A stretch of 64,000 nt of DNA from positions 1 to 64,000 of the forward strand of contig JAOPGA020001558.1 of NCBI GenBank assembly GCA_026419775.2. Direction: 5' to 3'. The notes beneath the pieces were generated by a model. It was given only the letters and a program-made list of their open reading frames with translations, did no database searches and was not told the DNA's origin. Positions 37,512 to 43,819 of the stretch are shown here, in pieces (the stretch's first letter is position 1; every line of letters begins with the position of its first letter). The stretch is from Acrasis kona. Taxonomy: Eukaryota; Heterolobosea; Eutetramitea; Acrasida; Acrasidae. The position numbers and the translations under genes were made by a program.

Positions 37512-37964
37512 CATTAACTTTTGTTCTTCATTATTTGTTCTTGTTAATTTATAAATCTCCATACTCACTCATCGCCGAATAATACTGTTCAAATGTACGC
37601 ATTCTCTTCAACAAGATTCACACAATAGTTCCAACTCCCATCTAGTCAACGGAAAATGAGTGTGTTACATGTAAAAGTACCGAAGTTAATGTATTTTTAG
37701 CTTTTTAGAAGGATTTTGACCAGGGTTCTTTAAAACAAGCTTTAGAAAAAACATAAAGGACCAACAAAAATACGTAGAATCCAATTTTCAAGTCAATTCT
37801 TGATTTTATTAAGGATTGATTGTGTATTAGTTGATTTTAGTCTAGTTGCCCCATCCCGATCTAATATTAGGACCGGAGATAATAGTTCGGTACTTTTACA
37901 TGTAACACACTCAAATATTGCCTTCTTGTTTTACAATGTTTTGATTACAAAAAATAATCGTAGC

Positions 37965-40724: not shown

Positions 40725-41690
40725 ATGCTGAGCACCAGATTTTGCACTTTGAAGGGTGTCCGCTTACTTTTTAATGCACCGCGCCTTAGAGTGCCACATG
40801 TCAATCCTCGCTTACGCACATTTAGATTTTACACAACTGAGGCAGAGGAAGAGCAAGATGATGAAGTGCCGGAGTTCGTTGTTGCATCTGAGAACGAGAG
40901 AATCATAGAAAATGAGTTATCGACAATACATAACATACTAAGCCAAGCGAAAAACATTTTAGCCACGGCAAGAATAATTGACCGACACTTTAAAAAAGTT
41001 GAATTGCTCGATAAATCAGTTTTAGAGAACGAAGATCCTGAAGAACTAAAGAACTACGCAGAAGGAGCCGTTTATAATACAATTCACAACGATCTACCCG
41101 CAGTTGCAACAGAGATTGAAAGCTGCGCCGTAAAGCTACCTCAAAAGCAACAACTTGTAAATGGGGATGAGGATGACAACGATCAAGAAAACAATTCGGA
41201 GTTATATAAAGTAGTTAGGGCTACCCTTGTGAGGTTGACAAATGTGGAGAAGAGTAGAAGACCCATTGGAGTGATGATGACCAATGCTTTATATACTGTT
41301 GTGAAGCGCATCCACGACGAGGTCAGAGGCATTGATTTCGACAATCAAAAGTCACTAGAACGGATGTGCCAGCTACATTTCGACATCGATCTCTATAATA
41401 TATTTCTAAGTGCGTCTTCTAGACTCGGGGATAAGGACGGCGTTGTGAATCTTATGAATGACATGAAGGATTATGATGTCAAAGGCGATTCTGAGTCGTT
41501 TCACCACTTTGTCGCTGTAGTACTACGAAATCAAGATCAAAGTGCAGCGGAGAAGGTACTGTCTTACATGCGCTCGAGGGACATTTTTGTACTTCCAAAA
41601 ACTATAGAAGCTATCGAATCAAAAGGGAAAAGCTTATATAAAGAGAATGAGACGGAAGATGATTATGATTTATTTGGGAGTGAGGGTTAA
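40725..41690 (+). CDS. Mitochondrial PPR-like protein
   Basis: A single exon of 321 residues. The N-terminus is Arg/Leu/Phe-rich without acidic residues up to about 38, a typical mitochondrial presequence. The middle is acidic and helical. At about 225-295 there are two pentatricopeptide-like helix pairs (DIDLYNIFLSASSRLGDKDG; ESFHHFVAVVLRNQDQSAAEKV). PPR proteins bind organelle RNA. With only two units seen, the RNA role is tentative. Confidence 0.6.
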   Translation: MLSTRFCTLKGVRLLFNAPRLRVPHVNPRLRTFRFYTTEAEEEQDDEVPEFVVASENERIIENELSTIHNILSQAKNILATARIIDRHFKKVELLDKSVLENEDPEELKNYAEGAVYNTIHNDLPAVATEIESCAVKLPQKQQLVNGDEDDNDQENNSELYKVVRATLVRLTNVEKSRRPIGVMMTNALYTVVKRIHDEVRGIDFDNQKSLERMCQLHFDIDLYNIFLSASSRLGDKDGVVNLMNDMKDYDVKGDSESFHHFVAVVLRNQDQSAAEKVLSYMRSRDIFVLPKTIEAIESKGKSLYKENETEDDYDLFGSEG

Positions 41691-41759: not shown

Positions 41760-41767
41760 GTTACATT
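41760..41767. repeat. Target site duplication, left copy
   Basis: GTTACATT immediately left of the inverted repeat. An identical copy lies at 43812-43819. An 8-bp duplication is typical of the hAT superfamily. Confidence 0.9.
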
Positions 41768-41785
41768 TAGGGCTCCTACTGAAAG
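41768..41785 (+). repeat. Left terminal inverted repeat (18 bp)
   Basis: TAGGGCTCCTACTGAAAG, perfectly inverted at 43794-43811. Confidence 0.93.
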
Positions 41786-41990
41786 AATCTCTTTCGAAAT
41801 TTCTTTCGTTTCGATGCTTTCATTTTCTTTCAACTTTTTGTCGAATAAAATTTACAATTTCATACTTTCATTCCTTTCGTTGGATATCCTTTCGAAAGTT
41901 TCATGATGAATTTTAAAAGTTTTGTTATAATAGCTTTTCACACCGCCCAACCAAACGGTGGTTCTATAATCGGGTTGATTTAAAAACAAA

Positions 41991-42947
41991 ATGAATATAC
42001 TTGCACACTTCAAACATAATGAGGCTTTCCTATCGTTGATGCAACATGGAGAAGATATACGTCAAATCAATTCGTTATCATTTCCTGTCGGTTTGATAAA
42101 ACAAGCAGATACTTTGCAATGCCCAGAACCCAAATATAGGACGCAAATCAAATACACATTCACAATTGAAAAGTCTAGTCTTGAGGATATTCTACTACCA
42201 TTTTTCGACAAAATCTCTGAAGATGTGTACGATGAGATTTTTTACACGGATAAGTTTTGTGAAACTTTTTTCGAAGGGGATTGGTATAAGATAAAATTTC
42301 ACAAATCGAAGTGTCCGTCTGTTTCATTCAAACACATAAATATTGGGAAGATGGAAAATAGTGACCAGGACTGTTTATTGATTAGAGAATTCGTAGCGCC
42401 TTTAGATTCCCACTTAACCAGTATCCTGATACCTTACTGTATGCATCAATCATTTGAAACGATGATTCCTATATACGTCAAAAGAAAAACTTATGGGCTC
42501 AAGAAAAACAAAAATATAATGTTGACTGTCGACACTGCAACGTATCAAAAAGGAGGCGATCCGTACGAAGTTTGCTCCATTTTTGCCGATGTCCTCGACG
42601 ACCAAGTCGAAAACATTTTAAAGCAAGTTCCAGAAGAGGCTCCTATGAAACTCATTATAGACAACAGTAAACACGCACAAAGCAAGATTGTTGAGTATCT
42701 AATAAGACACGATCGCGCAACGTACCATTCACTTGTGTATGAGAACATCATCCAAAATGATGTTATTGCGCCAAAGTATGTTGATTGGGATACTGTTGAA
42801 ACGGTAGAAGAAGACCAGCAGCGTGATTTTGAAGTACGCGTTGATCAAGAATTGCAGGCCCGGCAACATGCGTATGCACCTATGCCTTATATTTTCGATC
42901 CGAAAATTCACAAATATCTGGAATTAGAGGATGACACCAACCAGTAA
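41991..42947 (+). CDS. Passenger gene 1: 318-residue protein, perhaps CYTH-like
   Basis: A single intact exon lying wholly inside the hAT-like element. No RNase-H, zinc-BED or hATC feature of a transposase is seen. The segment at about 50-110 (KYTFTIEKSSLEDILLPFF ... FFEGDWYKIKFHKSK) and the later one at about 180-205 (IMLTVDTATYQKGGDPYEV) recall the alternating pattern of the CYTH/triphosphate tunnel fold; this is weak. Its stop is 3 bp from that of the opposite passenger gene. The upstream 40 bp contain a palindrome (CACCGCCCAACCAAACGGTG). Confidence 0.6.
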   Translation: MNILAHFKHNEAFLSLMQHGEDIRQINSLSFPVGLIKQADTLQCPEPKYRTQIKYTFTIEKSSLEDILLPFFDKISEDVYDEIFYTDKFCETFFEGDWYKIKFHKSKCPSVSFKHINIGKMENSDQDCLLIREFVAPLDSHLTSILIPYCMHQSFETMIPIYVKRKTYGLKKNKNIMLTVDTATYQKGGDPYEVCSIFADVLDDQVENILKQVPEEAPMKLIIDNSKHAQSKIVEYLIRHDRATYHSLVYENIIQNDVIAPKYVDWDTVETVEEDQQRDFEVRVDQELQARQHAYAPMPYIFDPKIHKYLELEDDTNQ

Positions 42948-42950
42948 AAA

Positions 42951-43363
42951 TCAGTAGAATTTATATATTTTGATCTGATGTTGGTACCCATTTCCACCAG
43001 TATTACCATGGTCCACACAATGGAATCTTTCGTATGGTCCAATGGCTTTTCTATTTTCTTCTTGTGCTCTTTTAATACTTTGATCTCTTACTCTCTTAAG
43101 GGTATCGTGGTAGTGTTTATTGTTATGAATAAGTTTTTCCTTGATAGAGTATCGGTGAGGACAGCGCGTAGTCTCGCGGTAAAGAAGAAATCCTGTCACA
43201 CCATCGGCCACCTTTAGATTATTCCCTACACGACTTGTCCAAAGAACATAATTCCTGTCGTGTTTCCAGATCTAACATGTTAATCGTAACAATGATAGAT
43301 ATTTATTCTTACTTTGTTCTGACCGTTTTTTTGGCATTGTTTTATAATAGCGTTCGTTTTCAT
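42951..43363 (-). CDS. Passenger gene 2: 123-residue basic protein, unknown
   Basis: Exons 43363..43313 and 43271..42951, joined over a 41-nt GT-AG intron, give 123 residues. The protein is basic, with conserved-looking aromatic stretches (RNYVLWTSRVGNNLKV; DGVTGFLLYRET) and a helical RVRDQSIKRAQEENRKA segment. The working intron argues against a random frame. It lies inside the hAT-like element, convergent with passenger gene 1. No family is recognised; small mitochondrial ribosomal proteins have a similar look. Confidence 0.55.
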
Positions 43364-43793
43364 TATACGTCAATTCACTGTTAAGTATTATGTAACATGG
43401 TGTAGGAACTTGAGTCTGTGCTTGGATTGATATTTGATCTGGTGTTTGTGTTTGATCACAAATTATTCGATTCTGGTCGTATTATTTAAGGATTTAGACA
43501 TTATTTATCGTCAGAAACACTTGAGTGTTGATGGTGCAAAAGAAATGTTCTGGAATTGATAATGTGTTGTATTTTTATTGTTTAAAATGACACGTTATTT
43601 CCATAAAGTACCAGTTTTCTTGGCTGTTTATGTCGTCTTTTACTTTCAAAACTTTCGATGATGTTTCGAAGGGTCTTTCTTTCACTTTCGTTTCAACAAG
43701 TTGGGTGGAAAAAGTGATAGGTTGACTTTCAAAGTGCTCATTTCAAAAAAGTATTAAAAATGTTTCGAAAGTGTTTCGAAAGCTTTCACTAGC

Positions 43794-43811
43794 CTTTCAG
43801 TAGGAGCCCTA
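43794..43811 (-). repeat. Right terminal inverted repeat (18 bp)
   Basis: Exact inverted copy of 41768-41785. Confidence 0.93.
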
Positions 43812-43819
43812 GTTACATT
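43812..43819. repeat. Target site duplication, right copy
   Basis: GTTACATT immediately right of the element, identical to 41760-41767. Confidence 0.9.

Follow-up and report, generated by a model that had tools for sequence, protein, structure and literature searches.

Non-autonomous hAT elements that carry pieces of host genes have been described in several groups of eukaryotes. Pack-TYPE hAT elements are known in rice and maize (PMC8903248), and hAT accounted for 208 of 370 animal Pack-TIRs (PMC8277862), according to the accessible portions of these papers. For the heterolobosean amoeba Acrasis kona, the available text of the genome paper gives an estimated size of 44.02 Mb, introns of 9-95 bp and a repeat content of 16.8%, and the word hAT is absent from its main text (PMC11589745). 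In the literature on Acrasis kona, heterolobosean hAT and protist hAT cargo, the available portions of the matches listed contained no report of such a capture. Here we describe an insertion in a 64,000-nucleotide stretch of A. kona DNA (the window, meaning the whole stretch that was analysed) and compare it with these systems.

Results

The insertion is located on contig C814, and its features are listed in Table 1 (el denotes the element coordinate). The initial annotation of the window had reported perfect 18-bp inverted ends, a perfect 8-bp duplication and a 2,044-bp body, and all three were confirmed. With up to 3 mismatches, the terminal inverted repeat (TIR) TAGGGCTCCTACTGAAAG matched 2 sites in the window, both of them the TIRs themselves, where 0.01 were expected. 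A scan of the window for perfect 18-mer inverted pairs no more than 6 kb apart listed 12 pairs, and only the 41768/43811 pair had identical 8-mers outside; the other 11 were registers of an inverted repeat at 37657-37913. This second perfect inverted repeat has 28-bp arms (37657-37684 and 37886-37913) that lie about 200 bp apart and are flanked by differing 8-mers. A chance inverted repeat and 8-mer flanking ordinary host genes, with no transposon involved, is a negligible explanation, given the 0.01 TIR matches expected in the window, the exactness of the flanking duplication, and end homology to a transposase-bearing element, C744, that runs well past the TIRs. The element was apparently inserted recently. 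The upstream neighbour is a 321-aa frame (40725-41690) whose PPR matches are weak and do not reach the curated cut-offs, and its stop sits 70 bp ahead of the left copy of GTTACATT.

Table 1. Positions of the element, its ends and its passengers in the window.
Feature	Position	Strand	Remarks
Left target-site duplication copy, 8 bp GTTACATT	41760..41767		identical to right copy, 8/8
Left terminal inverted repeat, 18 bp TAGGGCTCCTACTGAAAG	41768..41785	+	18/18
Left hAT end, el 1-139	41768..41906	+	77.3% identity to transposase-proximal end of C744
Interior block, el 206-1669	41973..43436		homologous to C845:108394-109814, 79.9% over 1,482 columns
Passenger gene 1, 318 aa, single open frame	41991..42947	+	no Pfam match; dN/dS 0.195 vs C845 homologue
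Doubtful predicted 123-aa gene	42951..43363	-	exon 1 43313-43363, 41-nt GT-AG intron 43272-43312, exon 2 42951-43271
el 1696-1778	43463..43545		outside C845 match; present at C692 next to fragment of 318-aa gene
Right hAT end, el 1823-2044	43590..43811	-	el 1823-2020 vs C744: 68.9% over 206 columns
Right terminal inverted repeat, 18 bp TAGGGCTCCTACTGAAAG	43794..43811	-	18/18
Right target-site duplication copy, 8 bp GTTACATT	43812..43819		identical to left copy, 8/8

The assembly scanned for related sequences comprised 37.35 Mb in 1,021 contigs. At C744:18264-21457 it contains a 3,194-bp hAT element with matching TIRs and an exact 8-bp duplication, TGCTGCAA, which encodes an unbroken 702-aa ORF with zf-BED (BED finger) and Dimer_Tnp_hAT domains (73.9 bits, Pfam search). 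The TTTCGAAA motifs are found at el 25 and 123 in the window element and at 25 and 124 in C744. Because the transposase-bearing C744, in the same genome, has ends of this type and is also flanked by an 8-bp duplication, the window element was assigned to the hAT superfamily, in agreement with the initial annotation; it shows the 8-bp duplication, and its short TIRs and subterminal sequence are common with C744. Neither the 318-aa frame nor the minus-strand frame had a Pfam match, so the element shows no hAT transposase of its own, and among the matches listed for the genome (at least 66 to the hAT domain and at least 84 to the transposase) none was on C814. A truncated transposase as cargo was ruled out on these grounds. 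Taken together, the sequence features indicate that the window element is very probably a non-autonomous, Pack-type hAT transposon. It may move by cut and paste with a C744-type transposase acting in trans. The initial annotation had made further movement depend on a transposase elsewhere, and the unbroken ORF of C744 provides one. Of the nearest relatives of the C744 transposase, those at C499 and C531 contain stops and that at C851 starts at a contig end, and long open frames are also present in more distant hAT families of the genome.

The genome was scanned for further copies of the TIR, as had been proposed along with the first description, and 68 sites were found with up to 3 mismatches, including 36 with up to 2; the reversed-pattern control gave 37 with up to 3, as a total without breakdown by mismatch. 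Copies of the ends thus occur elsewhere, which excludes the outcome that there are none, and the ends of the window element differ by 16-23% from every other end found in the genome. Among the extracted loci, most of which were too short for both ends, TIR pairs with at least 6/8 matching flanks were limited to the window element, C744 and a unit on C314. The C314 unit (L049 1175-2022) is 848 bp long, has more distant, TAGGGGTCTTAT-type ends and a perfect ATTGCTCT duplication, and encloses a hAT dimerisation domain; it is a small hAT derivative from another family. A candidate at C790, with 1,153 bp between its TIRs, was rejected as a further element, with differing flanking 8-mers and a longest inside frame of 93 aa.

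The interior block is homologous to chromosomal DNA at C845, and the identity of aligned positions is 85.9% in gene 1, 82.7% in el 1181-1512 and 76.1% in el 1513-1669. The C845 homologue of the 318-aa gene is intact (313 aa), and the block there is flanked by frames, recognised by eye, that we take to be ABC transporter-like and glucose-6-phosphate isomerase-like. The alignment of the C845 flanks with the hAT ends was shuffle-like, the score being reached by 274/500 shuffles on the left and 446/500 on the right. Since these intergenic flanks scored no better than shuffles, C845 was rejected as an element with worn ends. Gene capture, as initially proposed, is supported because the 80% identical block at C845 has flanks without a hAT end. 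The element therefore has an interior homologous (79.9%) to chromosomal DNA without transposon ends, as in Pack-type elements, and either copy may have come first; C845 could also be an element copy that has lost its ends. The genome search found neither a donor closer than 80% identity nor a second full copy of the element. Moreover, C845 is at best a relative of the donor, because el 1696-1778 falls outside the C845 match and sits at C692. The interior block may derive from a C845-like chromosomal locus. At the left interior junction an overlap, TTCAT(G/C)ATG, was seen by eye, and the joining perhaps took place through template switching at this short overlap.

Alternatively, the complete element may have come in recently from a different Acrasis strain or species, through introgression or horizontal transfer. 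This would account for a singleton that has perfect ends but no part with a close relative; the element is present in a single copy, and its ends and interior each lie about 16-23% away from all other sequences found in the genome. However, the third-position GC of gene 1 (0.39) is like that of C845 (0.39), the PPR neighbour (0.40) and the transposase (0.41), and no outside source appeared in the protein searches, whose sets may hold few heterolobosean genomes. We consider such an arrival improbable.

The initial annotation described an intact 318-residue gene, and the corresponding ORF is indeed unbroken. Compared with C845 over 311 codons, gene 1 has a dS of 0.484 and a dN of 0.094, and the ratio of 0.195 (bootstrap 0.125-0.301) indicates that it has been constrained. 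A ratio of about 0.5 or more would be expected if one copy had decayed freely over half the path. In a substitution-only simulation, stop-free copies numbered 3/2000 at 0.24 changes per site, 42/2000 at 0.1 and 267/2000 at 0.05. Relative-rate counts were too small to rank the copies by relaxation: 2 for the window, 5 for C845 and 27 unresolved with C785, and 3, 1 and 14, respectively, with C273. This leaves two explanations: selection acted on gene 1 within the element, or the gene was taken up only recently from a donor under constraint, a donor missing from the assembly.

The protein encoded by gene 1 had no match in Pfam. When the window protein or a four-sequence profile served as the query in a protein database search, the only match was P0001, which is the C845 copy of gene 1, recorded as Acrasis kona. 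P0001 matched 0 Pfam families at E up to 5, neither that of the receptor's GTPase nor any other, and its name in the database, 'signal recognition particle receptor subunit beta', therefore appears to be wrong. By eye, a relative of gene 1 at C785 resembles thiamine triphosphatase (ThTPase), and its alignment beat shuffles in 1000/1000 cases with the mouse protein and 998/1000 with the human one; the score of the window protein was reached by 266/1000 (mouse) and 144/1000 (human) shuffles. For ThTPase/CYTH likeness, hhalign gave 12.8% for C785 and 0.6% for the gene-1 family, and no hit with an E of 1 or less came from a genome search with the CYTH family. A PDB profile search returned a single match (E 0.44), and AlphaFold2 on a two-sequence input reached a mean pLDDT of 31. 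A ThTPase/CYTH-like origin of gene 1 is only weakly suggested.

The spliced 123-residue gene that had been annotated as a second passenger fared less well. Its exons and GT-AG intron are readable, but on C845 the counterpart of this minus-strand frame is broken by a frame shift and by stops, and no database match was obtained for exon 2. One further match, at C606, is weak (29%, E 0.0045). The frame was thus rejected as a firm second gene and is kept as a doubtful prediction, the product of which may resemble HNH-type proteins.

A gene-1 family of 7 counted loci (window, C845, C785, C273, C692, C586 and C540) emerged when the window protein, the DNA of the element and the C785 peptide were used as queries. 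C504 was left out of the count (E 0.016 over 25 residues). High scores in the shuffle test also arose away from family genes, at L070 4687-4766 (score 47) and L072 1031-1173 (score 49), each with 0/100 shuffles reaching the score and neither beginning at a TIR. For this reason, an end was counted only if it started at the TIR start or within one base of it and was located at the gene. No such end was found at C845, C692, C586 or C540. At C273, the left end is of the hAT type, with scores of 82 and 84 (0/500 shuffles each), and is followed by a decayed relative of gene 1. An 18-bp TIR lies five bases past the stop codon of this relative, and inspection by eye suggests a possible 7/8 flanking repeat, T(T/C)AGCGTC, which is separated from the left end by a few bases. 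At C785, the left end starts at the TIR and is closest to C533 (score 74, 0/100 shuffles). When up to 2 mismatches were allowed, the pattern of this TIR occurred at 9 genome sites, versus 0 for the control. The end is joined to the middle of the gene, which is without its first 80-90 residues or so, and no right end was seen in 5.5 kb of the locus. At the window, C273 and C785 alike, the gene is oriented away from the left end.

Two side observations were made at these loci. A DDE_Tnp_4 transposase fragment at C785 (L070 1540-2160, 26.7 bits), which we take to be PIF/Harbinger-like, meets the truncated gene-1 relative tail to tail. Paralogous repeat-rich host genes adjoin both the C273 element (L071 3688-4689) and the weak C504 cargo match (L013 205-1461).

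The genes at C273 and C785 share 65% identity over 78 aa, and each is about 30% identical to the window protein. By end type, C273 groups with the window element and C744, and C785 with C533. This disagreement between end type and cargo kinship favours repeated association over a single capture, and we read it as separate captures or as an exchange of ends. Gene capture by a hAT element, as proposed in the initial annotation, is backed by the C845 block, but members of the gene-1 family also follow hAT ends at C273 and C785, which points to more than one capture.

Another explanation is a long-lived hAT-derived lineage, in which gene 1 was acquired once, long ago, and inherited in transposase-less elements, while C845 and the fragments lost their ends and C845 perhaps became a host gene. 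This agrees with the hAT left end directly before the gene in the same orientation at 3/7 family loci (window, C273 and C785), with the scattered and mostly decayed state of the family, of which P0001 is the sole relative in the protein set, and with the low dN/dS of gene 1. On the other hand, the close C273 and C785 genes carry different ends (C744-type and C533-type, respectively), the C785 end meets the middle of the gene, and no remnant of ends is visible in the flanks of C845. An old lineage of this kind is possible but rather unlikely.

Under repeated association, junctions between hAT ends and family members may have formed repeatedly, at the window, C273 and C785. As a tentative extension, to which we give limited credence, hAT ends might repeatedly acquire or keep the gene-1 family and so give rise to transposase-less elements with their own conserved gene, of which at least one copy, C845, has perhaps become a resident host gene.

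Discussion

The window element is a new member of the Pack-type hAT elements, a kind known in plants, animals and fungi, and provides a clean case of hAT gene capture in a heterolobosean amoeba. It is unusual in combining an intact, constrained cargo with one orphan gene family that is found repeatedly with two hAT end types. The constrained frame and its relatives behind two end types make it testable whether such cargo persists because it serves the host, because it serves the element, or through chance alone. Within the same genome, the closest system is the C744 hAT element, which has the TIRs, subterminal sequence and 8-bp duplication in common with it; the 702-aa transposase is present in C744 only.

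The following comparisons refer to the accessible portions of the reports cited. Like the rice and maize Pack-TYPE hAT elements (PMC8903248), the window element has non-autonomous hAT ends, an 8-bp duplication and captured chromosomal coding DNA. It differs from them in being amoebal and single-copy, in its complete constrained frame, and in a cargo whose gene family also follows hAT ends at two other loci. As in the animal Pack-TIRs, hAT ends flank a duplicated block and a parental-type copy exists without ends, and microhomology was seen at many of the animal breakpoints (PMC8277862). However, that survey concerned young cases with clear parental copies, whereas the nearest copy of the window element is only 80% identical. 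A host-type gene inside a hAT element is also known from Pseudocercospora fijiensis, where histone H3 was captured without introns and is present in hundreds of RIP-inactivated copies (PMC6710886), in contrast to the one intact copy found here. Turmoil-1 of C. elegans is likewise a DNA transposon that has taken up two protein-coding sequences (PMC2572040), but these are located inside its inverted terminal repeats, whereas the coding sequence of the window element lies between the ends.
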